Positions 46,531 to 62,394 of a DNA stretch of 64,000 nt are shown one piece after another. The translations under genes and the position numbers were made by a program. This stretch comes from Rubrivirga marina (GTDB taxonomy: Bacteria > Bacteroidota > Rhodothermia > Rhodothermales > Rubricoccaceae), in contig NZ_MQWD01000001.1 in NCBI RefSeq assembly GCF_002283365.1, positions 2,134,944 through 2,198,943 of the forward strand. The letters are read 5' to 3'. Positions within the stretch are counted from its first letter, which is position 1. Each line of letters starts with the position of its first letter. The notes under the pieces are model-generated. The model saw only the letters and a program-made list of their open reading frames with translations, ran no database searches and was not told the DNA's origin.

Positions 46531-47568
46531 GTGCCCGTCACCATCTACGACATCGCCGAGGGCGCGGACGTCTCCATAGCGACCGTCTCGCGCGCCTTCA
46601 ACGGGCACCCCCGGGTGTCCGAGACGACCCGCGAGCGCGTGTTCGCGGTGGCGCGGGCGCTCGGCTACGAGCCGCACGCGAGCGCCCAGAGCCTGGCCCG
46701 CCAGAACACCCAGCTCATCTCGGCGGTCGTCCCCATCATGACGTCGGCCTTCTTCATGGAGGTCCTCCGCGGGATCCAGGACCGGCTCGACGAGAGCCAC
46801 TACGACCTCGTCGTCTACGCCAGCCGGACGCTCGACTCGATCGGCGGGCAGCTCTCGCGGGCCGTCCAGCGCGGCCGGGCCGACGGGATGCTCCTCATCT
46901 CGACCCCCATCACCGACGCCCGCGTCCGTCAGATCCTCGCTGCCCGCCAGCCCGTCGTCCTCGTCGACGCCTACCACGACGACATCGACTCCGTCACCGT
47001 CGACAACCGGCGGGGTGGGGCCGTCGCCACGCGGCACCTCCTGGCGCGCGGCCACGAGCGGATCGGGCTGCTCCTGCCGGTCGAGGGCTCCGGGCCGTCC
47101 GACCAGCGCCGGGCGGGCTACGAGGACGCGCTCCGCGAGGCGGGCATCGAGGTCGACGAGGACCTCATCCTCCACGCCATGTGGGACCACGTCCACCACG
47201 GGTACACGCGCTACGCCGGCTACCAGGGGATGCGCGAGTTGATGGGCCGGTTCGAGGGGCGTGACGACGGGCCGACCGCCGTGTTTGCCGCGGCCGACGT
47301 CCTAGCCTACGGCGCGCTCCGCGCCGGCCGGGAGGCCGGCTACCGGGCCCCCCGCGACATCGACGTCATCGGGTTCGACGACATCGAGCCGAGCGCCTAC
47401 GCCGGCCTCTCGACGGTCCGCCAGCCGATGTACGAGATGGGCAAGATGGCGACCGAGCTCCTCATGCGCCGCCTCGGCAACCCGGCGTCGCCCGCTCAGC
47501 ACACCGTGTTCGCGCCGGACCTCGTGGTTCGGGAGTCGAGCGGCGGCAGCGCCGAGAAGCTCGTATGA
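46531..47568 (+). CDS. LacI-family transcriptional regulator of the starch/maltodextrin locus
   Basis: 345 residues from GTG. The N-terminal helix-turn-helix and hinge are intact (VTIYDIAEGADVSIATVSRAFNGHPRVSETTRERV, hinge HASAQSLARQNT with the minor-groove contact Leu-Ala). The periplasmic-binding-protein-like sensor domain follows (LISAVVPIMTSAFFMEVLRGI, VDAYHDDIDSVTVDNRRGG, DVIGFDDIEPSAYAGLSTVRQP). A perfect operator overlaps its own promoter, so autoregulation is expected. Its stop overlaps the next gene as ATGA. Because the downstream genes are amylases and a receptor, the effector is probably a maltodextrin or a derived sugar; that is inference. Confidence 0.95.
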   Translation: MPVTIYDIAEGADVSIATVSRAFNGHPRVSETTRERVFAVARALGYEPHASAQSLARQNTQLISAVVPIMTSAFFMEVLRGIQDRLDESHYDLVVYASRTLDSIGGQLSRAVQRGRADGMLLISTPITDARVRQILAARQPVVLVDAYHDDIDSVTVDNRRGGAVATRHLLARGHERIGLLLPVEGSGPSDQRRAGYEDALREAGIEVDEDLILHAMWDHVHHGYTRYAGYQGMRELMGRFEGRDDGPTAVFAAADVLAYGALRAGREAGYRAPRDIDVIGFDDIEPSAYAGLSTVRQPMYEMGKMATELLMRRLGNPASPAQHTVFAPDLVVRESSGGSAEKLV

Positions 47569-49253
47569 CGCGACGCTTGGGACCGGTTTTGCTGCTGGCA
47601 GCCCTGCTCGGCGCCGGCGGGATCGCCGTCGGGTGCGGCGCGGAGGCCGCGTCGCCGGGCGGCAGTGCCGTCGTGGCGCGCGTGGGGGAGGGGGCCGTCA
47701 CGCTCAACGAGGTGTCCGAGGCCTTCGCCGACCTCGTCGTCCGCGGTGGGCTCGACGCCTCGCCCGAGGCGCTCGACGCCGTCGTCCAGTCGCTCGTCCA
47801 CCGCCGGCTCCTCATCGAGGGCGCCTACGCCGACGGGATCGAGCAGACCGACGACTACCGCGCCGCCCTCGCCCTTGCCGAGACGAAGGCGCTCCTCGAC
47901 CGCTACACTGCACACGCGCTCCGCGACGAGCTCCAGGTCACCGAGGCCGACGAGCGCGAGGCGTTCGTCATGATGAACACGACGTACGACGCGCGGCACC
48001 TGTACGCCCGCGATCGCGAGACGGCCGAGCGACTCCGTCAGCGCCTGCTCGCCGGCGAGACGTTCGAGGCCCTCGCGGCAGAGACGTTCGCCGACTCGGC
48101 CCTGGCCGCCTCGGGCGGTCGGCTGGGGGCGTTCGGACACGACGAGATGGACCCGGCCTTCGAGGCCGCCGCCTTCCGGCTCCCCATCGGCGAGGTGTCC
48201 GAGCCCGTCCGCACCGCGACCGGCTACTCGGTGATCCGGGTCGACGCGCGCGCGTCGAACCCGCTCCTGACCGAGGACGACTTCGCGCGGAAGCGGCACC
48301 AGATCCGCCGCTACGTCGCCAAGCGGAAGCGGACGGAGGGCCGGTTCCGGCTCAGCCGCGAGGTCCGCGACGACCTCGCCCCTCGCTTCACCGACGCCTT
48401 CGACCGGCTCGTGGCCTTCGCGACGGGCGTCGCCCCGAACCTCGACGCCGAGGCCCTCGCCGAGTGGCGCCGCCAGCCGCTCGTCCGCTTCGACTCGGAC
48501 GCGCTCGGCGGCGTCTGGACCGTCGCCGATGTGGAGGACCGCGCGGCGTCGATGACGGAGCGCCAGCGGGCGGCCGTCCAGGACGCGGCGACGCTTCGCG
48601 ACTTTATCGAGGGCCTGCTCGTCCGCGAGGAGCTCGCCGCGCGTGCCGAGGCGGAGGGGCTGGGCGGCCCGGCCATCCGCGAGAGCGTCCAGCGCCAGAT
48701 GGACGAGTGGGTCTTTTCGGAGGCGAAGCGCCGCCTGCGCCTCGACGTGGCGATCCCGGACGACTCGCTCCGCGCCCATTTCTCGGCCCATCCGGACGCG
48801 TACGTCGTGCCCGAGCGCGTCCGCGCCCGCGAGATTCTCGTCGCGACGCGCGCCGAGGCCGACGCCCTCCGCCGCCAGCTCGCCGACGGCGCCGACTTCG
48901 AGGCGCTCGCCCATGGGCATTCGCTTCGCCCTGGCGCCGCCACGGCTGGGGGCGACCTTGGCGCCGTCACGCGCGCCCAACTCGGCCGCCTCGGCGGCGC
49001 CGTGTTCGACGCCACGCCGGGCTCGCTCGTCGGTCCTGTCGAGGTGGCCGGTCGCTACGTCCTCGTCGAGCGCGGCGAGACGCTGCCGCCGCGGCCCATG
49101 ACCTTCGCCGAGGCCCGTCCGCTCGTCCGCGAGGCGCTCGACGCCCCGTTCGCCCAGCGCCGCCTCGCCGCCGCCGTCGTCGGCCTCCGCGACCGCTTCC
49201 CCGTTCGCGTCGACCGCGACGCGCTCGCGCCGCTCCTCTCGGCCCGCCTCTGA
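47565..49253 (+). CDS. Peptidyl-prolyl isomerase lipoprotein with two parvulin (PpiC) domains
   Basis: 562 residues. The N-terminus MTRRLGPVLLLAALLGAGGIAVGC ends in a lipobox-like VGC (Cys24). A SurA-like helical region is followed by a first rotamase domain (about 135-230, ARHLYARDRETAERLRQRL, GGRLGAFGHDEMDPAFEAAAFRLPIGEVSEPV) and, after an insertion, a second one (about 415-515, VRAREILVATRAEADALRRQL, GGDLGAVTRAQLGRLGGAVF). It should chaperone outer-membrane proteins in the periplasm. It overlaps the lacI stop by four bases and is three bases from the TonB receptor, so it may be a dedicated folding factor for that receptor or for the giant protein after it. Confidence 0.9.
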   Translation: MTRRLGPVLLLAALLGAGGIAVGCGAEAASPGGSAVVARVGEGAVTLNEVSEAFADLVVRGGLDASPEALDAVVQSLVHRRLLIEGAYADGIEQTDDYRAALALAETKALLDRYTAHALRDELQVTEADEREAFVMMNTTYDARHLYARDRETAERLRQRLLAGETFEALAAETFADSALAASGGRLGAFGHDEMDPAFEAAAFRLPIGEVSEPVRTATGYSVIRVDARASNPLLTEDDFARKRHQIRRYVAKRKRTEGRFRLSREVRDDLAPRFTDAFDRLVAFATGVAPNLDAEALAEWRRQPLVRFDSDALGGVWTVADVEDRAASMTERQRAAVQDAATLRDFIEGLLVREELAARAEAEGLGGPAIRESVQRQMDEWVFSEAKRRLRLDVAIPDDSLRAHFSAHPDAYVVPERVRAREILVATRAEADALRRQLADGADFEALAHGHSLRPGAATAGGDLGAVTRAQLGRLGGAVFDATPGSLVGPVEVAGRYVLVERGETLPPRPMTFAEARPLVREALDAPFAQRRLAAAVVGLRDRFPVRVDRDALAPLLSARL

Positions 49254-49256
49254 CCT

Positions 49257-52100
49257 ATGCGCCTTCGCTCCTGTCTCGCCCTCGCGGCGATCGTCGGCTC
49301 CCTCTCGCTCGCCCCCGCGGCCCTCGCCCAGACGACCGGCCAGCTCTCCGGCACCGTCCGCGACGCCCAGAGCGGCGAGGCCATCATCGGGGCGAGCGTG
49401 CTCGTGGAGGGCACGACCCAGGGCGCCTCGACGAACATCGACGGCGAGTTCCGGATCATCGGCGTCCGCCCCGGCGCCTACACGCTCGTCGCCTCGTACA
49501 TCGGCTACGCCACGACGCGGCTGGAGGGTGTCCGGGTCAACGTCGATCTCACCACGACGGTCGAGCTCGAGCTGACCTCGGAGACGGTCCAGACCGAAGA
49601 GGTCGTGGTCACGGCCAGCGCCGACCTGGTGCGGCGCGACCTCACGTCGTCCGAGTTCCGCGTGACGAGCGACGCCATCGAGTCGCTGCCGGTCCAGGAG
49701 GTCGGCGACATCCTCTCGACGCAGGCCGGCGTCACGACGTCCGGCGCCGGCATCCACATCCGCGGCGGGCGGTCGAAGGAGGTCGCCTACTTCGTCGACG
49801 GCGTCCGCGTGACCGACGCCTACGACGGGTCGGTCTCGGTCCAGATCGAGAACGAGGGGATCGAGGAGCTCCAGATCATCGCCGGGACCTACAACGCCGA
49901 GTACGGCCAGGCCAACTCGGGCATCATCAACGTGGTGACGAAGGACCCGGGGACTGAGTTCGAGGGGAACGTGGAGCTGTTCTCCGGGACCTACGCCGTG
50001 AGCGGCGACGGCGGCGCCGACGCGCTCCGCGGCTCGAACACCGGCGACTACCCGCTCCTCGCCAACCTCCCGTACATCGACGTCGACCCGTACTCGTACC
50101 TCGGCGTCAACCCGACGCAGTACGTCAACGGGCAGGCCTCGCTGTCCGGGCCGATCCTCGCCGACCGGCTCGGGTTCTTCGCCCTCGGGCGCTACTTCCG
50201 CAACGACGGCTGGCTCTACGGCTCGCGCGTCTTCAACACGGACGGGACGCCCGGCGACTCGGCGCTCGTGCCGATGAACGCGTTTGAGAAGTACAGCGGC
50301 CAGGCCACGCTCAAGCTCCGCGCCTCGAACCGGATCAACCTCTCGCTGACGACGCTCGCCTCGCTGACGACGGGCGACGGCGGGAGCAGCGCCTTCGACT
50401 TCCGCCTCAACCCCGACGGCATCCGGAGCTACCGCGACGAGGGGCTCACGGCCAACCTCCAACTCACGCACACGCTCTCGAACACGGCCTTCTACACGCT
50501 CAACGCGAGCACCTTCTACAAGCGCAACCGGACGGCGGCCTTCGACACCATCGAGGAGTACGAGGACAACGCGTTCCTCCTCCAGACGCCCGAGTTCGTC
50601 TACACAGGCTACGACGGGAACGGCCTGCCGACCGACTCCATCGCCGTGCTCCAGGGGCCGGGCCGGTTCCTCCGCGGCGGCGTCGACCTCGGGCGGTTCC
50701 AGCGGGAGACGCGGAACCTGTCCTTCAAGGGCGACCTCACGTGGCAGGCCCTCGAGCAGCACCTCGTCAAGACCGGGCTCGAGGTCCGCCTCGACGACAT
50801 CTACCTCGAGAACTACGGGCTCACGCTCGCCGACGACGGGACGCTCCAGATCCCCGGGCCGGGGACCAACGAGTACCAGCTCATCGAGGACGTCCGGCCG
50901 CTGACCGTCAGCGCGTACCTCCAGGACAAGGCCGAGTACGAGTCGTTCGTGATCAACGCCGGCCTCCGGTTCGACTACTTCGACTCGAACGGCCAGATCC
51001 CGGCCGACCCCGAGGACCCCAACGCCTTCAACCCGCAGAAGCGGATCAACCGGTTCAACGACCTCGACGGGGACGGCCAGATCTCCGAGGCGGAGGAGGT
51101 CGACGAGAACCGGACGACGCTGGAGCAGCGCCTCGGGTACTTCTACGAGGACGCCACGCCCAAATTCCAGGTCTCGCCCCGCCTCGGCGTGGCCTACCCG
51201 ATCACGGCGCAGGGCGTGATCCACTTCTCGTACGGGTACTTTTTCCAGATCCCGACCTACGAGTTCCTCTTCGCCAACCCCGGCTACCGCGTCGGGACGT
51301 CGTCCGGGACGTACGGGCCGTACGGCAACCCCGACCTCGACCCGCAGCGGACGGTGATGTACGAGATCGGGCTCCAGCAGGGCTTCGGGGACGACTTCCT
51401 GCTCGACGTGACGGGCTTCTACCGCGACATCGAGGACTGGGTCTCGGTCGGCTTCCCCATCGACGGGACGCTCCCGGGCGTGGACTACCTGATCTACGAG
51501 AACCTCGACTTCTCGAACGTCCGCGGCATCACGGCGGCCCTGAGCAAGCGGTTCAACGGCCGGTTCTCGTTCGACGTCGACTACACGTTCCAGGTGGCCG
51601 AGGGGTCGAACTCGGACCCGAACGACGCCATCGCGGCCCGCTCCGGCGCCGACGCGCCGACGCTCCGGATCATCCCGCTCAACTGGGACCAGCGCCACAC
51701 CTTCAACGCGAGCCTGTTCGTGGGCGGCGGCGGGTGGGGCGCCTCGGCGATCGGGCGGTTCGGGACGGGCTATCCGTACACGCCGGCCGCCGACCCCGGC
51801 GGCGACCGGATCGGGACGCTCCCGGCGATCCCCACGAACGCGCTCCGCCGGCCCGCCACGGCGTCCGTCGACCTCTACGCCTTCCGCCAGTTCGACCTCG
51901 GCGGCGTCGCGCCGCGCGTGTTCCTCCAGGTCTACAACCTCCTCGACGCCCGCAACGCGACCGGCGTCTACGGCGACACGGGCCTCCCCGACGTCACCTT
52001 CCTCAACGTGGGCGCGCAGGACGACCCCGGCTACTACGTCCGCCCCGACTTCTACCAGGAGCCCCGCCGGATCCAGCTCGGCCTCTCCGTCGGCTTCTAA
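49257..52100 (+). CDS. TonB-dependent receptor with carboxypeptidase-regulatory-like N-terminal domain
   Basis: 947 residues with signal peptide MRLRSCLALAAIVGSLSLAPAALAQ. Residues about 28-115 are a CarboxypepD_reg-like beta-sandwich (GQLSGTVRDAQSGEAIIGASVLVEGTTQG). A TonB-box-like EEVVVTAS (about 118) and the plug domain follow (VGDILSTQAGVTTSGAGIHIRGGRSKEVAYFVDG), then a 22-strand-type barrel ending in aromatic IQLGLSVGF. It imports a ligand, probably an oligosaccharide given the context, through the outer membrane with TonB energy. No SusD lipoprotein follows; a 1326-residue secreted protein starts four bases after the stop. Confidence 0.95.
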   Translation: MRLRSCLALAAIVGSLSLAPAALAQTTGQLSGTVRDAQSGEAIIGASVLVEGTTQGASTNIDGEFRIIGVRPGAYTLVASYIGYATTRLEGVRVNVDLTTTVELELTSETVQTEEVVVTASADLVRRDLTSSEFRVTSDAIESLPVQEVGDILSTQAGVTTSGAGIHIRGGRSKEVAYFVDGVRVTDAYDGSVSVQIENEGIEELQIIAGTYNAEYGQANSGIINVVTKDPGTEFEGNVELFSGTYAVSGDGGADALRGSNTGDYPLLANLPYIDVDPYSYLGVNPTQYVNGQASLSGPILADRLGFFALGRYFRNDGWLYGSRVFNTDGTPGDSALVPMNAFEKYSGQATLKLRASNRINLSLTTLASLTTGDGGSSAFDFRLNPDGIRSYRDEGLTANLQLTHTLSNTAFYTLNASTFYKRNRTAAFDTIEEYEDNAFLLQTPEFVYTGYDGNGLPTDSIAVLQGPGRFLRGGVDLGRFQRETRNLSFKGDLTWQALEQHLVKTGLEVRLDDIYLENYGLTLADDGTLQIPGPGTNEYQLIEDVRPLTVSAYLQDKAEYESFVINAGLRFDYFDSNGQIPADPEDPNAFNPQKRINRFNDLDGDGQISEAEEVDENRTTLEQRLGYFYEDATPKFQVSPRLGVAYPITAQGVIHFSYGYFFQIPTYEFLFANPGYRVGTSSGTYGPYGNPDLDPQRTVMYEIGLQQGFGDDFLLDVTGFYRDIEDWVSVGFPIDGTLPGVDYLIYENLDFSNVRGITAALSKRFNGRFSFDVDYTFQVAEGSNSDPNDAIAARSGADAPTLRIIPLNWDQRHTFNASLFVGGGGWGASAIGRFGTGYPYTPAADPGGDRIGTLPAIPTNALRRPATASVDLYAFRQFDLGGVAPRVFLQVYNLLDARNATGVYGDTGLPDVTFLNVGAQDDPGYYVRPDFYQEPRRIQLGLSVGF

Positions 52101-52103
52101 TCG

Positions 52104-55100
52104 ATGACTGCCTTGACCTTCTCCTCCCGGCTCCTCCTCGCCGCCCTCGTCGTGGCCGCCTCGGCGCCCGCGTGGGCGCAGGGCGTGATCGACCGCGACC
52201 ACGTGCCGTCGGACGAGCGCGTCGACCTGTTCGAGCGGCGCCAGACCGACCTCGACGCCAACGTCGTCCGCACGACGGTCTTCAACTTCGGCCAGACCGG
52301 GCGGACGAGCGCCGCGCCCGACGAGATCCCCTACGAGTGGCCGCGCAACACGCGCCGGCACTACCTCGCGCTGACCGGCCTGTTCGCCGGCGCCGAGGTC
52401 GTCGGCGAGAGCGGCGAGCGCGAGTGGATCGTCGACGTGCCGAACTACCGGACGAACCTCAACAACCCGTCGGAGGCGTGGACCTGGGCGCCCGTCCAGG
52501 GCTACGTCAACACGGCGGACGAGGACCTCGGGATCGCGCGGAGCGACCGGCCCGAGACGTGGCCCGCGTTCTGGCCCGACAAGACCGAGGACCCGACGGA
52601 CCCCGGCTGGGCCGGCTCCTGGAGCGGCCTCTTCGGCAAGGACGTGTTCAACGCCGACCTCGAGGTCTACTACAAGATGGGCGACGACGAGTACGCCAAG
52701 CCCAACAACACGTACTACCCCGACGAGACGGACCGCTCGCGGCGCGGCCTCGGCCTCCTCGCCGACACCCGCGTGCTGGCCTGGAGCCAGGTCCTCATCG
52801 ACGACGTCGTGTTCATCCTCCACAAGGTCAAGAACGACGGGACGAAGGACCTCTCGACGGTCGGCGTGACGCTGTGGCTGGCCGACCTCGTCGGCGGCGA
52901 CCCCGACGCGAGCGACGACCAGCCGTTCTTCGACCTCCTCCTCGACACGGCCTTCCTCGCCGACGCCGACGGCCGCTCGACCGACACGGCCTTCGAGGGC
53001 GCCGAGGTGGAGGGGGCCATCGCGTTCTTCCTCGAGACGCCGGGCAACGCGACCGACCGGATCGACAACGACGGCGACGGGACGACGGCGCCCGAGGCCG
53101 CCGAGTTCAACTTCCGCGGCGTCTCGAAGGGCGAGCCCGGCGGCCCGATCGTCACGCTCGGGCTCCTTGCGGGCGAGGGCGATCAGGCGGGCGCCGCCGG
53201 CCGCCGCCTCCGCTACGACGGCATCGACAACAACGGGAACGGGCTGATCGACGAGGACTCGACGCAGGCCGCCTTCGGCACCCAGGTCGGCGTCGGGTTC
53301 GCCGACTACATCGACAACGACGGCGACGGCGAGCCGGGGAGCCCGGTCGTCACGCAGGCCATGATCGACGCGGCCGCCGCCGACGTCTACGGCCGCTGGC
53401 CCGTGAACCCGAACACCGAGGCGGGCGAGCCCGTCCACCTCATCGGCGTCGGCGTCGCCTACGGCGTCGGCGACACCGACGACCTCGGCAAGGCGTTCCG
53501 CGACAACATCGACAACGACGGCGACGCCTTCTCCGACGGCCCGCCGCCGGACTTCCTCTGGGAGCCCGGGAGCCCGGTCGTCACGCAGGAGATGGTGAAC
53601 GCCGCCGCGTCGGACGCGCCGTACTACCGGTACGCCGTGCCCGGCACCGACATCGTCCTCTACGACGTGAAGGCCGAGGACGTCGGGAGCCCCTACGCCG
53701 ACGGTGTCGACAATGACGGCGACGGGGCCATCGACGAGGGGATCGACGAGGACATCGACGAGATGATCGACGAGCGCCGCGACGACGGGATCGACAACGA
53801 CGGCGACTGGCGGGCCGCGCTCGACGACGTCGGCCTCGACGGCTCCGGCAACACGGTCGACACGGGCGAGGGCGACGGCGTGCCCACCTCGGGCGCCGGG
53901 ACCGACCTGCCGGGCGAGCCGAACCTCGACGTCACCGACGTCTCGGAGTCCGACCAGATCGGCATCACGAACGTCCAGTACAAGCCGGCCGGCGGCGTCA
54001 ACTACCAGTCGATCGCCGATCGCCAGCTGTTCTTCGACTTCATGGTGCCGGGCCAGTTCTCGCTCCTCCAGCCGGGCCAGTCGCCGGCCTCGCGCGACAC
54101 CGACCTGTTCGTGTCGTCGGGCACGTTCCCGCTGCGGGCCGGCCAGACCGAGTCGGTCTCGTTCGCCGTCATCCTCGGGGACGTCGACTACGGCCGGCAG
54201 GCGACCGACGTGGAGGGCCGCTACCGCGACCTCCTGACGAAGCGCCAGGACGCGCTCGAGGCCTACGAGGCCGACTACCGCTTCGCGCAGGCGCCGATCT
54301 GCCCGACCGTCCGCGCCGTGCCCGGCGACGGGGCCGTCACGCTCTACTGGGACGACGCGGCCGAGTCCTCGTTCGACACGTTCATCGCCGACCTCGCGCA
54401 GCCGGGCCTCGACCCCCGCGACTTCGAGGGCTACCGCGTCTACCGCGCCACGGACCCCGGCTTCCTCGACGCCCGTCAGATCACGGACGGCTTCGGCAAC
54501 GTAAGCTTCCTCCGGCCGATCGCGCAGTTCGACCTCATCGACGCCTACGAGGGGTTCCACCCGGTCGCGACGAACGGGACGCAGTTCTACCTCGGCTCGA
54601 ACGTCCGCGACCCGGGCGAGGCGGCGAACGGGCTCGTCAACACGTTCACGGACTCGACGGCCGTCAACGGCGTCCAGTACTACTACGCCGTCACGAGCTA
54701 CGACTTCGGCGCGGCGACCGTCAACATCCAGCCGTCCGAGTGCCCGATCTCGATCACGATCGGGCCCGACGGCACGGTCACGCGGACCGGCCCCAACGTC
54801 AGCGTCGTCACGCCGTCGCAGGCGGCGGCGGGCTACACCGAGGGTACCGCCGAGCTGACCCAGACGCAGGGCTTCGCGAGCGGGTCCGTCGCGTACCGGA
54901 CGGTCGACCCGACGTCGCTGCGCGACGGCCACCGCTACCGCGTGACGTTCCGCGACACGCTCATCCTCGGCCAGATCAACACGAGCGGCCGGCAGATCAC
55001 GCAGGACACGATCCGCACGCGCGACGTCACGCTGGTGGACGTGACCGACGGCCGGACGCTCTTCGCCAACTCGACGGCCTGGCGGCCCGAGCGCGACGCG

Positions 55101-56084
55101 CCGATCACCGACGGCTTCCAGCTCTCGTTCGACCCGGTCTTCTTCACCAGCCGGATCGCCGACTCGACGCGCTGGCAGGGCGCCGGCATCAAGCCGATCA
55201 CGGCCGACGTGTTCAGCTTCGCCGGTAACCCGCCCGGCACGCGCGTCCCGGCCGACTACCGCATCGAGGTGGGCCCGCCCGGCTCCGGCATGTCGACCGC
55301 GTTCGCGCTCACGGTCGGCATCCCGCGGACGCTCCCGGCCAAGCCGACCAACGTCCGCGTGTTCAAGACGGTCGTGGACGGGGCGGGCAACGCGACCGAG
55401 GTGCCCGTCGCCTACGCCTTCTACGACGTGGCCGGCGACGGCGCGTCGCCGTTCGAGGTCGGCAGCGCGGCGACGAACCTGTTCTCGACCCAGTACAACA
55501 TCGGCGGGGCCGGCATCGACGACTCGGACCGGATCTACCTCTTGGAGGACATCCCCGGCGATCGCCGCGACGGCCTCACGCCGACGTGGGAGATCCGGAT
55601 GAGTCTCGCCGACCCGGCCCTCCGGGACCCCCAGCCGGGCGACACGGGCGTCCTCGTCACGAGCAAGCCGTTCCTCGCGTCCGACGTCTACGAGTTCACG
55701 GTGACCGGGCCGAGCTTCGACGCCGACGCCGCGGCCGGCCTGCTCGACCAGGTCCGCGTCGTGCCGAACCCGTACCGCGGGACGAGCCAGTTCGAGGTCG
55801 CGAACCCGTTCCCGACGGGGCGCGGCGAGCGCCGGATCCGGTTCGTCGGGCTCCCGCCCCAGGCCACGGTCCGCATCTTCACGCCCTCGGGCCGCCTCGT
55901 CCGGACGCTCGAGATGAACGAGGGCTCGAACGGCAGCATCACGACCGGGATGCTCCTCAACGGGTCGCTGTCGTGGGACCTCCTCAACGAGGACCGCCTC
56001 GAGGTCTCGTACGGCGTCTACCTCTACCACGTCGAAGCGCCCGGGGTGGGCGAGACGACGGGCACCCTCGCCCTCATCAAGTAG
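52104..56084 (+). CDS. Giant secreted protein with IDNDGDG repeats and T9SS-type C-terminal domain
   Basis: 1326 residues with signal peptide MTALTFSSRLLLAALVVAASAPAWAQ. The N-terminal 300 residues (VVRTTVFNFGQTGRTSAAPDEIPYEWPRNTRRHYLALTGLFAG, GSWSGLFGKDVFNADLEVYYKMGDDEYA) resemble an uncharacterised conserved domain. Six Asp-rich IDNDGDG-type motifs follow (residues about 319, 372, 402, 468, 534, 563), the most compact being VDNDGDGAIDEGIDEDIDEMIDE, and look like calcium-binding loops. Fibronectin-like segments (about 735-880) come next, then VVPNPYRGTSQFEVANPF ... YGVYLYHVEAP at the end, a T9SS-type sorting domain. It sits between the receptor and the PorV-like gene in one operon. Function is unknown; surface capture of substrate in place of SusD is one hypothesis. 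Confidence 0.85.
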   Translation: MTALTFSSRLLLAALVVAASAPAWAQGVIDRDHVPSDERVDLFERRQTDLDANVVRTTVFNFGQTGRTSAAPDEIPYEWPRNTRRHYLALTGLFAGAEVVGESGEREWIVDVPNYRTNLNNPSEAWTWAPVQGYVNTADEDLGIARSDRPETWPAFWPDKTEDPTDPGWAGSWSGLFGKDVFNADLEVYYKMGDDEYAKPNNTYYPDETDRSRRGLGLLADTRVLAWSQVLIDDVVFILHKVKNDGTKDLSTVGVTLWLADLVGGDPDASDDQPFFDLLLDTAFLADADGRSTDTAFEGAEVEGAIAFFLETPGNATDRIDNDGDGTTAPEAAEFNFRGVSKGEPGGPIVTLGLLAGEGDQAGAAGRRLRYDGIDNNGNGLIDEDSTQAAFGTQVGVGFADYIDNDGDGEPGSPVVTQAMIDAAAADVYGRWPVNPNTEAGEPVHLIGVGVAYGVGDTDDLGKAFRDNIDNDGDAFSDGPPPDFLWEPGSPVVTQEMVNAAASDAPYYRYAVPGTDIVLYDVKAEDVGSPYADGVDNDGDGAIDEGIDEDIDEMIDERRDDGIDNDGDWRAALDDVGLDGSGNTVDTGEGDGVPTSGAGTDLPGEPNLDVTDVSESDQIGITNVQYKPAGGVNYQSIADRQLFFDFMVPGQFSLLQPGQSPASRDTDLFVSSGTFPLRAGQTESVSFAVILGDVDYGRQATDVEGRYRDLLTKRQDALEAYEADYRFAQAPICPTVRAVPGDGAVTLYWDDAAESSFDTFIADLAQPGLDPRDFEGYRVYRATDPGFLDARQITDGFGNVSFLRPIAQFDLIDAYEGFHPVATNGTQFYLGSNVRDPGEAANGLVNTFTDSTAVNGVQYYYAVTSYDFGAATVNIQPSECPISITIGPDGTVTRTGPNVSVVTPSQAAAGYTEGTAELTQTQGFASGSVAYRTVDPTSLRDGHRYRVTFRDTLILGQINTSGRQITQDTIRTRDVTLVDVTDGRTLFANSTAWRPERDAPITDGFQLSFDPVFFTSRIADSTRWQGAGIKPITADVFSFAGNPPGTRVPADYRIEVGPPGSGMSTAFALTVGIPRTLPAKPTNVRVFKTVVDGAGNATEVPVAYAFYDVAGDGASPFEVGSAATNLFSTQYNIGGAGIDDSDRIYLLEDIPGDRRDGLTPTWEIRMSLADPALRDPQPGDTGVLVTSKPFLASDVYEFTVTGPSFDADAAAGLLDQVRVVPNPYRGTSQFEVANPFPTGRGERRIRFVGLPPQATVRIFTPSGRLVRTLEMNEGSNGSITTGMLLNGSLSWDLLNEDRLEVSYGVYLYHVEAPGVGETTGTLALIK

Positions 56085-56086
56085 CC

Positions 56087-57127
56087 ATGCCGATGCCCAC
56101 CTCCCTCGCCCGGCCGACCGGCGGCGTCCTGCGGCTGGCCCTCCTCGCCGCCGTCCTCGTGGCCCTGCCCGCCTCGGCGCAGTCGGGGACGGCCGCGGCC
56201 GAGTTCCTCAACGTCCCGATCGGGGCCCGCGCGACGGCCATGGGCGGGGCCTTCGGGGCCACGGCCGCCGACGCCTCCGCGCTCTACTGGAACCCGGCCG
56301 GCCTCGCCGGGATGCGCGACGCGCAGGCCCAGTTCGAGTACGCCCAGTGGTACGTCGGCTCCGACGTCAACTTCGCGTCCGCCGCCAGCCCGACGCCGTT
56401 CGGCGTGGTCGCCGTCGGCGTGACGGCGCTGACCTACGAGGACATGGACGTGATCGAGGAGAGCGGCAACAGCCAGCTCCCGTCGGGCGAGACGTTCGCG
56501 GCGGGTTCCTACGCCGTCTCGCTCGGCTACGGGCGCCAGCTGACCGACCGGTTCTCGCTGGGCGGGACCGTCAAGGTCGTCCGCGAGCAGATCGCCAACT
56601 CGTCGGCGACGGGCGTGGCGTTCGACGTGGGGACCCTCTTCGTGACGCCGTTCCGGGGCATCCGCCTCGGCGCCTCGATCGCCAACTTCGGCCCGAAGAT
56701 GCGGATGGACGGGTCGGACCTGAACATCCCGTTCGACCCGCTCCCGGGCCAGAGCGGCAACAACAACGCGATCCCCGGCCGGATCGCGACGGACGCCTAC
56801 GACCTCCCGCTCACGATGCGCGTCGGGCTGGCGACCGAGGTCTACGAGCAGGCCGGCACGCGCGTGACGGTCGCCGTCGACGCGCTCTCGCCGTCGGCCA
56901 CGGGCCAGCACGTCAACGCGGGCGCCGAGGTGGGCCTGCTCGGCGGGCTCGTCCAGCTCCGCGGCGGCGTCCAGGAGCTGTTCCTGGAGGAGAGCCCGCG
57001 GTCGTTCACGCTCGGCGGTGGCCTCCGCTACGGGTTCGGCGGGCTCGACCTCTCGGCCGACTACGCCTACGAGGCCGCCGACTACTTCGACGGCGTCCAC
57101 CGCCTCGCCGTCGGCCTCCGGTTCTAG
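56087..57127 (+). CDS. PorV/PorQ-family outer membrane beta-barrel protein
   Basis: 346 residues from ATG three bases after the previous stop. Signal peptide (RLALLAAVLVALPASAQ). The start of the mature protein AAEFLNVPIGARATAMGGAFGATAADASALYWNPAGLAG is the hallmark of the PorV/PorQ (UPF0164-like) barrels, and the end LSADYAYEAADYFDGVHRLAVGLRF is a typical last strand. PorV shuttles T9SS cargo from the translocon to the surface attachment complex. Here it ends an operon with a T9SS-type protein, which suggests a dedicated shuttle, though some family members have no link to T9SS. No Shine-Dalgarno sequence is visible. Confidence 0.9.
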   Translation: MPMPTSLARPTGGVLRLALLAAVLVALPASAQSGTAAAEFLNVPIGARATAMGGAFGATAADASALYWNPAGLAGMRDAQAQFEYAQWYVGSDVNFASAASPTPFGVVAVGVTALTYEDMDVIEESGNSQLPSGETFAAGSYAVSLGYGRQLTDRFSLGGTVKVVREQIANSSATGVAFDVGTLFVTPFRGIRLGASIANFGPKMRMDGSDLNIPFDPLPGQSGNNNAIPGRIATDAYDLPLTMRVGLATEVYEQAGTRVTVAVDALSPSATGQHVNAGAEVGLLGGLVQLRGGVQELFLEESPRSFTLGGGLRYGFGGLDLSADYAYEAADYFDGVHRLAVGLRF

Positions 57128-57254: not shown

Positions 57255-59390
57255 ATGCGACCCACTGCTACTCACCTCGGGCGATGGCTCGGCCTGGCGG
57301 CCCTCGCGGCCGTCCTCGCGACGCCAGCCCTCGCCCAGCGGACCATCACGCTCCGCATGAACTCGGCCACCCAGCCGGACACGATCGCGGCCGACGCGGC
57401 GCTCGCCGGCGCCCAGGTCCGCGGCCAGGTCGCCAGCGGCACAGCCCTGCCCGACGGCAACACCATCGACTGGAACGACAACACGACGCTGATCCCCGAG
57501 AACGTCGGCGGCGACTACTGGCAGATCGAGTTCCAGATCCCGGACAACGAGGAGCTCAAGTTCAAGTTTTTCTTTGGACAGTCCGAGCCTGAGGGCGACC
57601 TGCCTGGCGGCTGGGAGGCCGGCGGCGACCAGGTGATCCCGGCCGGGACCGGCGACGTGGCGCTCGACCTCCACTACTTCGAGAAGGTCGCCGGCGACCA
57701 GAACTACGACTGGCGGCCGTTCGAGGCCGGCGGCGACTCGGTCGCCGTCTGGTTCCGGACCTACATCGACACGGAGGACGCGCTCTCGAAGGGGCTCGAC
57801 CTCGACGACGGCTCGCTCGTCGTCGGCGTCCGTGGCGACAACGCCACCGGCGGCAGCCAGGACGGCGGCGCGACGACCATCGACTGGGGCTCGACCAACA
57901 TCGTCCTCAACCGCGAGAGCGACAACCCCTCCTCGCCCGGTTTCAAGCTGTTCTCGGGCGCCGTGTCGTACCCGGCCTCGGCGATCGGCTCGACGCAGGC
58001 CTACAAGTTCTTCTTCTCGGACAGCGACACGGACGCCGGTTGGGAGAACGACATCGACGGCGGAAACCGGACGTTCACGATCCCGGCCCAGGACTCTACC
58101 CTCATGTGGAAGTTCTACAGCAACAGCCCCGCCAACGAGGGGACGGCTGTGACGGCCCTCGTCGGGTTCCAGGTCGACGTCTCGCCGATCTCCTCGATCG
58201 GCCTCTACCAGGTCGCCGACGACCTTGTTCAGGTCCGCGGTGGGTTCAACGGGTGGGACTGCCCCGACGACAACCAGGACGACTGCCTGCTCCAGCAGAT
58301 CCCGGGCACGCCGGACTTCGCCCGTCAGGTGCCGATCACGGCCGCGCCGGGCGGCGACCCGCTCCCGTACAAGTTTTACGTCGACTTCCGCAATGCGGAC
58401 GGGACCGCCCAGTTCCAAGACGCCGCGGGGAACGACCTCGACGTCGGCTGGGAGGAGCCGCTCGACTTCGGCGGCGGCAACCGGTTCTTCGACTTCTCCG
58501 GCACGGAGCAGACGCTCGACGAGCAGTTCTTCAACGGCGTCCGCCCCGGCAACGTCATCGCCGATGGCCAGTCGGTCGACCTCACGTTCATGGTCGACAT
58601 GAGCGAGGCCACGATGTTTGAGGACGCACAGGGCCGCGCGTTCGACCCGGCCGCCGACACGGTCTCGGTCCAGTTCGAGGACGTGGTCTGGCTCCTGACG
58701 CAGGGGTACATCCCCGGTGGGGAGGACCTCGTCGACACGGGCTCTGGGGGCAACCTCGTCAACGGGTTCTCGCTCTCTGACCCCGACGGCGACCTCGTCT
58801 ACACCGGTACGCTTACGATCAACGGCCCGACCTACAACGGGATCGGCTACCGGTACGTCTTCGCCAATGACGACGACGGCCTCCAGGCCGAGGGCTCGGG
58901 CGGGTTCGACGCTGGCCGGCGCCGCTATCGGTACATCACCGACGTCACCGCCGACGCGTTCTCGTTCGCGAAGGACACGTTCCGGCCGGCCGGCCCGGGC
59001 GTTCAGGCGATGCCGTGGGAGATCAACCCGACCGGTCCGTTCGAGCCGGGCGACGTGCAGTTCTCGGTGCCCGTCGGCTTCGTCGACGAGGGCCTTGCCG
59101 TGTCTATCGGGGACGACCCGTCCCGCGACGGCGACCTCGCGCTCGGGGCCGTCTACCCGAACCCGACGACGGGCCTCGCCCGCGTCGTCGTGACCGCCCC
59201 GGCCGAGGCGCCGGTGACGGTCCGCGTGTTCGACGTGACGGGCCGCGTGGTGGCCCGTGTGGTCGAGGGCGCGTTCGTCTCGGGCCGCCCGCTCGACATC
59301 GACACGCGCGGCCTCGCCGCCGGCCTCTACCTCGTCCGCGCCGAGAGCGAGGCGGGCGTGGCCATCCGGAGCCTGACGGTCGTCCGCTAG
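57255..59390 (+). CDS. Secreted starch-binding-like protein with T9SS-type C-terminal domain
   Basis: 711 residues with signal peptide MRPTATHLGRWLGLAALAAVLATPALAQ. It contains repeated beta-sandwich modules that look like starch-binding or CBM20/48-type domains (YWQIEFQIPDNEELKFKFFFG, AYKFFFSDSDTDAGWENDIDGG, VQVRGGFNGWDCPDDNQDDC near 327, IGYRYVFANDDDGLQAEG), each built around a GGxFNGW or FKFFF aromatic cluster. The last 80 residues (LALGAVYPNPTTGLARVVVT ... GLAAGLYLVRAESEAGV) form a T9SS sorting domain. No catalytic residues were found. It probably holds starch at the surface, in the role SusE/SusF play in Bacteroides. An operator lies upstream and two terminators lie downstream. Confidence 0.86.
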   Translation: MRPTATHLGRWLGLAALAAVLATPALAQRTITLRMNSATQPDTIAADAALAGAQVRGQVASGTALPDGNTIDWNDNTTLIPENVGGDYWQIEFQIPDNEELKFKFFFGQSEPEGDLPGGWEAGGDQVIPAGTGDVALDLHYFEKVAGDQNYDWRPFEAGGDSVAVWFRTYIDTEDALSKGLDLDDGSLVVGVRGDNATGGSQDGGATTIDWGSTNIVLNRESDNPSSPGFKLFSGAVSYPASAIGSTQAYKFFFSDSDTDAGWENDIDGGNRTFTIPAQDSTLMWKFYSNSPANEGTAVTALVGFQVDVSPISSIGLYQVADDLVQVRGGFNGWDCPDDNQDDCLLQQIPGTPDFARQVPITAAPGGDPLPYKFYVDFRNADGTAQFQDAAGNDLDVGWEEPLDFGGGNRFFDFSGTEQTLDEQFFNGVRPGNVIADGQSVDLTFMVDMSEATMFEDAQGRAFDPAADTVSVQFEDVVWLLTQGYIPGGEDLVDTGSGGNLVNGFSLSDPDGDLVYTGTLTINGPTYNGIGYRYVFANDDDGLQAEGSGGFDAGRRRYRYITDVTADAFSFAKDTFRPAGPGVQAMPWEINPTGPFEPGDVQFSVPVGFVDEGLAVSIGDDPSRDGDLALGAVYPNPTTGLARVVVTAPAEAPVTVRVFDVTGRVVARVVEGAFVSGRPLDIDTRGLAAGLYLVRAESEAGVAIRSLTVVR

Positions 59391-59397
59391 CGACGCC

Positions 59398-59432
59398 GGC
59401 CCGGGCCGCCCCGAGAGGGGAGGGCCCGGGCC
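59398..59432 (+). terminator. First hairpin after the starch-binding-like gene
   Basis: GGCCCGGGCC (59398-59407) pairs with GGCCCGGGCC (59423-59432), and inside it CCCC-GAGA-GGGG forms a tetraloop stem. Only a weak CTGCTTTC follows. It is paired with the canonical terminator 11 bases on. Confidence 0.6.
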
Positions 59433-59442
59433 GCTGCTTTCG

Positions 59443-59476
59443 CGCCGGCCGCCGTAGCAGGCGGCCGGCGTTTTTT
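59443..59476 (+). terminator. Canonical intrinsic terminator directly before the amylase start
   Basis: CGCCGGCCGCC (59443-59453) pairs perfectly with GGCGGCCGGCG (59460-59470) around GTAGCA and is followed by six T (59471-59476). The amylase ATG begins two bases later at 59479. Confidence 0.93.
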
Positions 59477-59478
59477 CG

Positions 59479-62394
59479 ATGCCCACCACGCCCATGCGCC
59501 CGTTCCTTCTCCTGGCCCTGCTCGCCTCGGCCCTCGTCCCGGTCGGGTCGGCGCCCGCCAGCGCCCAGTCGGTCGACGTCACGTTCCGGTTCCTGCCGGA
59601 CCTCACGACGCCGCCGATCTCGCCCGTGTCCCGCGCCTTCGTGCCGGGCTCGTTCAACGACTGGGGCCCGAACAGCAGCGGGGTGATCGCCGCCGGCGCG
59701 CCGAGCCAGGCGGCCTACGAGCCGGCCCTCGCCGAGTACCGGTACACGACGACGCTCCAGGCCGGGCAGAGCTACGCCTACAAGGTCCACGTCCACCGCA
59801 ACGCGGCCGGCACCGACTACGTCTGGCTGACGGACCCGCTCGGGACCGAGACGACCGGGCCCAACAACGACTCGGTCGTCCGCGTCGAGGACCCGTTCGT
59901 GTTCCAGATCGCGCGCGAGCAGAGCGGGACGGCCGAGGTCCGGGCCGTCTCGGCCGGCGTGTTCGGCACGGCCGCGGTCGCGGCCGTCACGTTCACCGTC
60001 AACGAGACGACGTACACCGACGGCATCGAGGACACGGGCGACGGCGTCTACCGCCTGGTGCTGCCCGAGGCGGTCGCCCCCGGCGCCTTCGTCCGCGTCG
60101 AGGCGACCGACGCGGAGGGCCGGACCGCCCGCGCCGAGGTCGGCGCGATCCCGCCCGAGGTGACGGACGCGCCCGTGCCCGAGGGGCTGGAGGACGGCAT
60201 CACCTACGACCCGGCCGACCCGACGCGGGCCTGGCTCGTCCTCCGCGCGCCCGACAAGCAGTTCGTCTACGCCCTCGGCGACTTCAACGGCTGGACCGCC
60301 GACGAGGACGCCCTGATGTTCCGCGACACCACCGACCCGCTCGGCACGCGCTGGTGGATCGAGGTCACCGGCTTGACGCCCGGCGTCGAGTCCACCTTCC
60401 AGTACTGGGTCGACGGCACGACGTACGTCGCCGACCCGTACACGACGAAGGTCTACTTCCCCGGCGAGCCCGGATACCCCGACGAGGCCGTCGACTTCGA
60501 CGTCGGCGTCCTGACCCCGGGCGCCTCGGCGTTCCCGTGGACCGACCAGGACTTCGTGGCGCCGGCGCAGGAGGACCTCGTGATCTACGAGCTGCTCGTC
60601 CGCGACTTCCTGCGCGACCACAGCTTCACGGCGCTCGCCGACACGCTCGACTACCTCGAGCGGCTCGGCGTCAACGCCATCGAGCTGATGCCCGTCTCGG
60701 AGTTCGACGGCGACGAGAGCTGGGGCTACAACCCGGCCTTCCACCTCGCCCTCGACAAGTATTACGGGACGCCCGACGAGTTCAAAGCCTTCGTCGACGC
60801 GGCCCACGCGCGCGGGATGGCCGTGATCCTCGACGTGGTCTACAACCACGCCACGAACCGGAGCCCGCTCGTCCGCCTCTACAACGGCGGCGGCTACGGC
60901 GACCCGAGCCCCGGCAACCCGTACTTCAACGCGACGATCCCCGACCCCTTCGTCTTCTTCCCGGCCGACTTCGACCACACGAACCCGCTCACGCAGCTCT
61001 GGCTCGACAAGGCCAACCGGTTCTGGCTCGACGAGTACCACGTCGACGGGTACCGCTTCGACTACACGGGCGGGTTCATGCCGTCGGGCGAGTTCTTCAG
61101 CTACAACGTCCCGCGGATCGAGCTGCTGGAGCGGATGATGGGCGAGCTCTGGGCGACAAACCCCGACGCGCTCATCATCCTGGAGCACCTCGTCGAGAAC
61201 GGCCAGGAGTACCGCCGGCTGGCGGACTACCGCGCGCCCGGGAGCACGCGTCCGGGCCCGCTCCTCTGGCACAACATGAACCGGGCCTACAACCAGGGCT
61301 CGATGGGCTACCCGACGGCGACCGACTTCCCGAGCGCGCTCACGGAGACCTACACGCCGAGCTGGTTCGGCGGCGTGCCCGTCGCGAACGTCGTGACCTA
61401 CATGGAGAGCCACGACGAGCAGTGGATGATGTACCGGAACGAGGCCTACGGCAACAGCGCCGGCGCCTACGACGTGACCGACCTGTTCACGGCGCTCGAC
61501 CGCCAGCGGCTGGCCGGCGTGTTCCTGTTCACCGTCCCGGGCCCGCGGATGATCTGGCAGTTCGGTGAGCTCGGCTACGGGGCCGGCCCGGGCGAGTGCC
61601 TCGTCAACGGCGACTACCCCGGCGAGTGCCCCAACGGCGTGCCCGGCCGCGTCGCCAACAAGCCGATCCGGTGGGACTACTGGAGCGACAGCGCCCAGCC
61701 CTTCCGCAACGGCTACTCGGGTACGCTGACGGCCGCCGACGAGACGGAGCGCCGCGAGCGCCGCGAGCTCTACGCCACGTGGGCCGCGCTCCTCGACCTC
61801 CGAAGCAACTATGACATCTTCCGGAGCCCCGACACCGAGGTCACGACGCGCCTCGGCCGCGTGCCCGACCGCTGGATCCGCCTCTCGCTCCCCGACGCCC
61901 CCGCCGGCCAGCCCACCGAGGCCGTCATCTTCGGCAACTTCGGGGTGACCGAGCAGTCGGTCACGCTCACGTTCGACGAGGCCGGGACGTGGTACGACTA
62001 CTTCGACGACTCGGAGGCCGGGCTCCAGGCGGGCGTCCACACGGTCACACTCCGGCCGGGCGAGTACCACGTCTGGACGGACGTCGACGTGCCGTCGCCG
62101 GAGGGCGACCTCGGCGCCGTCGCGGAGGAAGGCGGGCCGGGCGACTTGGCGCCGGCGCGAATCGTCGCGCATCCGAACCCGACGGCCGGGCGGCTCGCGC
62201 TCCGCATCACGACGCACGACCCGGTCGAGGCGCCGATGGAGGTGTTTGACATGCTCGGCCGCCGCGTGCGGTCCGTGCCCATGCCGCTGGCGACGGGGTC
62301 TACGTCGGTCGAGGTCGACACGGACGGGCTCCCGGCCGGCGTGTACGTCGTCCGCTGGGGGCGCCACACGACGACCGTCTCGATTGTGCGATAG
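59479..62394 (+). CDS. Secreted GH13 alpha-amylase with CBM48-like domains and T9SS-type C-terminal domain
   Basis: 971 residues with signal peptide (MRPFLLLALLASALVPVGSAPASAQ after five leader residues; ATG at 59494 is an equally good start). Two E-set/CBM48-like modules come first (SRAFVPGSFNDWGPNSSG; FVYALGDFNGWTADEDALM at about 265). The GH13 barrel has region I DVVYNHA (about 451), region II GYRFDYTGG (about 524, nucleophile Asp), region III IILEHLVEN (about 567, acid Glu) and region IV YMESHDEQ (about 642). Residues about 870-971 (PARIVAHPNPTAGRLALRITTHD ... LPAGVYVVRWG) are a T9SS sorting domain. It cleaves alpha-1,4-glucans at the cell surface. The annotated start is two bases from a terminator. 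Confidence 0.94.
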   Translation: MPTTPMRPFLLLALLASALVPVGSAPASAQSVDVTFRFLPDLTTPPISPVSRAFVPGSFNDWGPNSSGVIAAGAPSQAAYEPALAEYRYTTTLQAGQSYAYKVHVHRNAAGTDYVWLTDPLGTETTGPNNDSVVRVEDPFVFQIAREQSGTAEVRAVSAGVFGTAAVAAVTFTVNETTYTDGIEDTGDGVYRLVLPEAVAPGAFVRVEATDAEGRTARAEVGAIPPEVTDAPVPEGLEDGITYDPADPTRAWLVLRAPDKQFVYALGDFNGWTADEDALMFRDTTDPLGTRWWIEVTGLTPGVESTFQYWVDGTTYVADPYTTKVYFPGEPGYPDEAVDFDVGVLTPGASAFPWTDQDFVAPAQEDLVIYELLVRDFLRDHSFTALADTLDYLERLGVNAIELMPVSEFDGDESWGYNPAFHLALDKYYGTPDEFKAFVDAAHARGMAVILDVVYNHATNRSPLVRLYNGGGYGDPSPGNPYFNATIPDPFVFFPADFDHTNPLTQLWLDKANRFWLDEYHVDGYRFDYTGGFMPSGEFFSYNVPRIELLERMMGELWATNPDALIILEHLVENGQEYRRLADYRAPGSTRPGPLLWHNMNRAYNQGSMGYPTATDFPSALTETYTPSWFGGVPVANVVTYMESHDEQWMMYRNEAYGNSAGAYDVTDLFTALDRQRLAGVFLFTVPGPRMIWQFGELGYGAGPGECLVNGDYPGECPNGVPGRVANKPIRWDYWSDSAQPFRNGYSGTLTAADETERRERRELYATWAALLDLRSNYDIFRSPDTEVTTRLGRVPDRWIRLSLPDAPAGQPTEAVIFGNFGVTEQSVTLTFDEAGTWYDYFDDSEAGLQAGVHTVTLRPGEYHVWTDVDVPSPEGDLGAVAEEGGPGDLAPARIVAHPNPTAGRLALRITTHDPVEAPMEVFDMLGRRVRSVPMPLATGSTSVEVDTDGLPAGVYVVRWGRHTTTVSIVR

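Follow-up and report, generated by a model that had tools for sequence, protein, structure and literature searches.

Polysaccharide-use loci are usually recognised by susC-susD. In the SusC-SusD (RagA-RagB) systems of Bacteroidota, the gene for a TonB receptor is followed by that of a surface partner, the pair is present in multiple copies per genome, and genes for glycanases, regulators and inner-membrane sugar transporters adjoin it. The type IX secretion system (T9SS) offers a second kind of pairing: cargo with a type B C-terminal domain (CTD) uses a PorP/SprF barrel of its own, whose gene usually lies immediately downstream (PMC12618676, PMC9143113), while PorU and PorZ stay at the surface through PorV and PorQ (PMC5562754). 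Here we describe a three-gene unit, the triad, in a 64,000-nucleotide stretch (the window; G+C = 72%) from contig 1 of the 4.98 Mb genome of Rubrivirga marina. It encodes a TonB-dependent receptor (947 amino acids (aa), 49257–52100; Pfam CarboxypepD_reg, Plug and TonB barrel), a giant surface protein (1326 aa, 52104–56084; delimited as an open reading frame and studied through family alignments, AlphaFold and Foldseek) and a PorV/PorQ-family outer-membrane barrel (346 aa, 56087–57127). All window genes described here lie on the + strand. We propose, with a probability of roughly 0.6, that the triad is a T9SS-dependent outer-membrane glycan-uptake module in which the surface-anchored giant does SusD's job.

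A locus of this form has been drawn before. In the alginate locus of Rhodothermus marinus (PMC9530828), tonB is followed by hypA (T9SS type A) and then by hypB (PorV/PorQ). The locus shares with the triad the succession of a receptor, a type A-tailed protein and a PorV/PorQ protein, lies beside alginate lyases and resembles the short triad L018 of R. marina, but its figure legend names only transport and hypothetical genes, and no system or mechanism is proposed. In the xylan locus of the same organism, hypothetical proteins come after a TonB receptor, and a SusC-SusD pair is also present (PMC6987092); passages of the Melioribacter paper discuss SusCDE (PMC3534657). In the open-access papers searched, the triad was nowhere described as a system.

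The initial annotation of this DNA had described a receptor, a 1326-residue protein and a PorV-family barrel with no SusD, and its coordinates and length were borne out, as was its N-terminal motif NFGxTGRT...YEWP, which reads NFGQTGRT...YEWP in the giant. Gaps of 3 bases (receptor-giant) and 2 bases (giant-barrel) separate the three genes. A scan of species genomes for the giant returned 505 relatives; the best 80 of 505, which were kept, come from Rhodothermia, Balneolaceae, Ignavibacteria, Melioribacteraceae, Kryptonium, Neomarinimicrobiota, KSB1, Calditrichota and others. In a phylum sample, 136 of 247 genomes held a match, some of these being weak and possibly confined to the tail. Genes were called with a codon model at 126 loci; seven end too early, leaving 119 with room on both sides. 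The order receptor-giant-PorV is exact in 114 of these, spanning Rhodothermia, Ignavibacteria, Kryptonia, Marinimicrobia, KSB1 and Calditrichota, and the other five are split or swapped versions whose components are still close by. A further set with short flanks kept the order in 28 of 30 cases. At L031 and L165 the order is receptor, PorV and then giant, and the trio stays together despite the change. Intergenic spacing in homologous triads is operon-like (medians of 27 and 20 bp), and each of the five genomes searched in full carries several copies. The annotation had placed such proteins with a receptor and PorV-like barrel in Ignavibacteria, which proved right, and had named homologues mostly without these neighbours as its refutation; the opposite was found.

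Searching the R. marina genome with the giant yielded six paralogues, each flanked in identical order by genes for a TonB receptor and a PorV-family barrel, giving seven triads in total. Chance adjacency was rejected, given these six other triads and the 114/119 homologous loci in the same order. A genome-wide search turned up 13 PorV-family barrels (a 14th, partial and weak match was excluded): seven belong to triads, another, next to the PorU sortase, is the canonical PorV, and the rest lie in L172–L176. One of these is in a variant eighth triad (L172:2777-9326; G000:C1, about 4376776–4383325), made up of a receptor, a 723-aa cargo with the giant's C-terminal subtype on a different body, a PorV-family barrel and then a lipoprotein. 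At L176:8144-10896 a 540-aa cargo bearing the subtype tail precedes a divergent PorV-like barrel; there is no receptor, and the two make a cargo-anchor pair alone. In L173 (5919-9946 and 3-1853) a PorV-family barrel comes immediately after a receptor, and a subtype-tailed cargo lies a few genes upstream; this is a rearranged or different module. The orphan barrels of L174:7865-8845 and L175:7508-8587, adjoined by neither receptor nor cargo, are candidates for PorQ or other shuttles. The most divergent full-length triad of the genome, L017:3783-11928, has a longer receptor (1152 aa) and a giant of 1162 aa; sugar genes are not obvious around it, and its substrate may differ from those of the other triads.

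The last 125 residues of the giant (55707–56084, including the stop codon) form a distinct C-terminal subtype that is tied to the downstream PorV-family gene. Its nearest solved structures are PorU (6za2) and PorZ (5m11). In the C-terminal alignment, the NCBIfam PorZ model matches 68/69 members, the PorU model 67/69 and the type A model 55/69; the window domain itself falls short of the type A model TIGR04183 (17.5 bits, cut-off 23), the PorZ and PorU models giving lower E-values. A PorV-family gene lies directly downstream of 119 of 122 main giants and nine of 11 other carriers of the subtype (128/133 altogether), as against none of 192 type A cargo genes at the same loci. The barrel of the window passes the PorV/PorQ family model NF033709 (176.4 bits, cut-off 90) and fails the canonical PorV equivalog NF033710 (53.5 bits, cut-off 250); its nearest solved sequence is PorV (6h3i_F, E=2.4e-7), and the genome's best PorV-family match, at 315 bits, is encoded beside porU. 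This homology and linkage suggest, most simply, that the third gene encodes a probable anchor or shuttle dedicated to the giant.

This arrangement recalls type B cargo such as SprB with SprF, where the barrel gene likewise lies directly 3' of the T9SS cargo, PorV and PorP-like proteins both being 14-strand FadL-family barrels (PMC9143113, PMC12618676). In the triad, however, the CTD is type A-like (PorU/PorZ-like), the barrel is of the PorV/PorQ family, and the pair lies downstream of a TonB receptor. The closer likeness in the domain itself is to the PorU-PorV and PorZ-PorQ attachment complex, in which a CTD protein stays at the surface through a PorV-family barrel and PorZ, like PorU, keeps its C-terminal domain (PMC5562754). 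Those proteins are housekeeping parts of secretion, whereas the giant is multicopy and nutrient-linked, with unrelated N-terminal domains.

The co-directional neighbours of the triads link them strongly to genes of glycan degradation and uptake. Just downstream stand GH16 (16/88), PpiC isomerases (15/88) and SBP_bac_1, the sugar-type solute-binding family (13/88), as well as GH3 and CBM20; farther downstream are ABC permeases (23/88), solute-binding proteins (13/88) and GH3 (8/88). Just upstream, T9SS-tailed CBM9-like proteins occur in 28 of 70 cases and PpiC in 10 of 70. Opposite-strand control genes at the same loci were mixed housekeeping genes, with none of these neighbour families among the 25 families listed. 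Among the copies in R. marina, the window triad lies with starch-type genes, while from sequence reading L016 appears to have glycanase-like, L018 alginate-lyase-like and L014 sugar ABC genes. A PpiC-type cluster recurs at 44 loci as a fourth member of the module, and the isomerase may help the giant or the receptor to fold. This strong glycan context and the 114 complete loci support the earlier interpretation as a conserved glycan-capture or surface-display module.

The annotation had also placed the triad 'in place of SusC-SusD'. This holds at the window locus, where no SusD gene was found, but not for the genome, which has four SusC-SusD pairs elsewhere. The window receptor reaches 82.7 bits against the SusC model TIGR04056 (cut-off 368.25) and by score is not SusC. 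Exactly four receptors of the genome exceed this cut-off, adjoining exactly four SusD genes, and no triad receptor is among them. The partners also differ. None of 127 giants has a lipobox-like motif in its first 45 residues, so that the triad partner is not a surface lipoprotein; it is about twice as long as SusD, ends in a T9SS-type C-terminal domain and comes with a PorV-family barrel of its own. No likeness to SusD was found in sequence (no Pfam SusD match in 74 members) or in fold (the best 50 matches listed for the orthologue model, and those for the model of the window giant's N-terminal region, include no SusD structure), and SusD in disguise was considered as the giant's identity and rejected. 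The triad and SusC-SusD are thus separate systems in this genome.

The presence of the giant follows that of the T9SS. Taking E below 1e-80 as presence of the giant, 47 of 62 genomes of the class have both the giant and the PorU sortase, three have PorU alone, none has the giant alone and 12 have neither (Fisher 2e-10, a descriptive value, the genomes being related and not phylogenetically independent). Within a single family the corresponding counts are 17, three, none and nine. All 12 genomes of the class without PorU (G015, G023, G026, G033, G036, G037, G038, G048, G054, G062, G068 and G070) lack the giant and have 3–18 SusD matches; they apparently represent loss of the T9SS inside otherwise T9SS-bearing groups. 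SusD matches run the other way, with a median of 10 per genome without the giant versus 3 with it (10.5 versus 2 in the single family), and eight giant-bearing genomes have no SusD match. Because the four receptors above the SusC cut-off pair with the four SusD genes and SusD counts are inverse, the two systems appear to replace one another, and their inverse numbers suggest an equivalent role. On balance we favour a history in which the module, multicopy and spread over several FCB-group phyla, has been swapped against SusC-SusD in evolution, with lineages that lose the T9SS losing the module and carrying more SusC-SusD.

The giant consists of a signal peptide without a lipobox, a β-supersandwich-like N-terminal region, an Asp-rich segment, FN3-like and other β domains, and the T9SS-type C-terminal domain. 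It matched no Pfam family, nor did any of 74 N-terminal regions of family members, and a sequence search against the PDB gave no match. The AlphaFold model of a 1065-aa orthologue is confident, with a mean predicted local distance difference test score (pLDDT) of 87.5 and a predicted template-modelling score of 0.81. Foldseek found no match to its whole fold and returned mostly generic FN3/Ig structures with template-modelling (TM) scores near 0.1, the sole informative rows being PorZ and PorU, which were among the best. As these matches were mostly generic, the N-terminal region of the window giant was modelled alone. The model combines a core of high confidence with a low-confidence Asp-rich insert (residues about 327–573; pLDDT <50 over most of its length) that holds most of the IDNDGDG loops. 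Foldseek matched the core to dextran dextrinase first, then to cyclic glucan synthase, cellobiose phosphorylase, GH94, PL26 and GH149, and also to the periplasmic domain of YidC. All but the last share a carbohydrate-active β-supersandwich, and the YidC domain belongs to the same fold class. These matches are weak but consistent, being mostly to carbohydrate-active supersandwich enzymes. The motif scan places six (I/V)DN(D/N)G(D/N) loops in the insert (residues 320–569; 53061–53810), which from its sequence likely binds calcium; the IDNDGDG character stressed in the initial annotation is real in the window giant and exaggerated in this copy, since most relatives have 0–2 loops by a similar motif count.

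We infer the following working model. The three genes would form one outer-membrane glycan-uptake module. The giant would be exported by the T9SS, keep its C-terminal domain and dock through it on the PorV-family barrel encoded downstream, as PorU does on PorV and PorZ on PorQ. Once anchored, its supersandwich-like N-terminal region would capture oligosaccharides at the surface and hand them to the partner TonB receptor for import into the periplasm. In the window the substrate would probably be starch or maltodextrin, freed by the adjoining T9SS-tailed GH13 enzyme, with the module under LacI control and served by a PpiC folding helper. The putative link to function is better founded than in the initial annotation.

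Several points weigh against the proposal. The N-terminal fold matches are weak (best E=1.4e-3, TM 0.19), the CBM_20 match of the starch-binding-like neighbour (E=7e-4) is under cut-off, three T9SS-positive genomes have no giant, and the relatedness of the genomes limits the statistics. Retention of the giant's C-terminal domain is not readable from sequence. Protein distances among the three members co-vary (r 0.93, 0.88 and 0.90; permutation maximum 0.13), as expected for any operon inherited as a unit, and are not used as proof. Alternatively, the receptor may import alone, with giant and barrel a dedicated T9SS cargo-anchor pair, adhesive or glycan-binding, that is co-expressed with the receptor and makes no contact with it. 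Cargo-barrel adjacency without a receptor is seen at L176, and type B cargo-SprF pairs function without a TonB receptor (PMC12618676, PMC9143113). Yet the receptor lies directly upstream at nearly every locus, even between paralogues about 40% identical, and the greater number of SusD genes where the triad is absent points to a role in transport; we consider such a contact-free pair unlikely, though not negligible.

The fold matches could instead be read as those of an extracellular enzyme, a supersandwich-type glycosidase or lyase whose products feed the receptor, as they include dextran dextrinase, GH94 phosphorylases, PL26 and heparinase-type lyases. By its secondary structure, however, the model has no catalytic helical (α/α)6 domain after the supersandwich-like region, and neither a catalytic helical barrel nor a SusD-like fold is evident in the giant models; the 74 members match no Pfam enzyme family, and separate glycanases accompany the triad. 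An enzymatic giant is accordingly improbable. Least credible is a FadL-type porin as the third gene product, with the triad importing hydrophobic compounds or another non-sugar nutrient. A weak Toluene_X match (24.7 bits, cut-off 29.7) speaks for it, but the PorV family score lies far over its cut-off, the barrel is strictly linked to the C-terminal subtype and sugar genes surround the triad.

If the uptake module proposed here is correct, the T9SS would be tied to nutrient import, and the rule of 'one cargo, one dedicated barrel' would come to cover a type A-like signal as well as type B. A PorU/PorZ-like tail with a PorV paralogue after it would then be a sequence handle for predicting surface-docked T9SS proteins. 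Searches based on susC-susD would miss the triad loci of Ignavibacteria, Marinimicrobia, Calditrichota and Rhodothermia.

In the window, the triad is part of a co-directional cluster that begins with a LacI-family regulator (46531–47568; Pfam LacI 59.7 bits, Peripla_BP_3 117 bits), which overlaps by 4 bases the gene for a PpiC-type peptidyl-prolyl isomerase with two rotamase stretches, a probable lipoprotein (47565–49253; Rotamase_2 98.9 bits). These two genes and the triad run head to tail, with spacing from the 4-base overlap to gaps of 2–3 bases. After 127 bases follows a secreted starch-binding-like protein with a type A T9SS tail (57255–59390; weak CBM20/CBM53; Por_Secre_tail 34.2 bits, above cut-off), and then a GH13 α-amylase-type enzyme, also type A-tailed (59479–62394; Alpha-amylase 81.5 bits; TIGR04183 30.4 bits, cut-off 23). 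Rfam and tRNA scans of the window gave no matches. Between the starch-binding-like and GH13 genes, at 59430–59480, lies a GC-rich hairpin followed by TTTTTT, a likely terminator.

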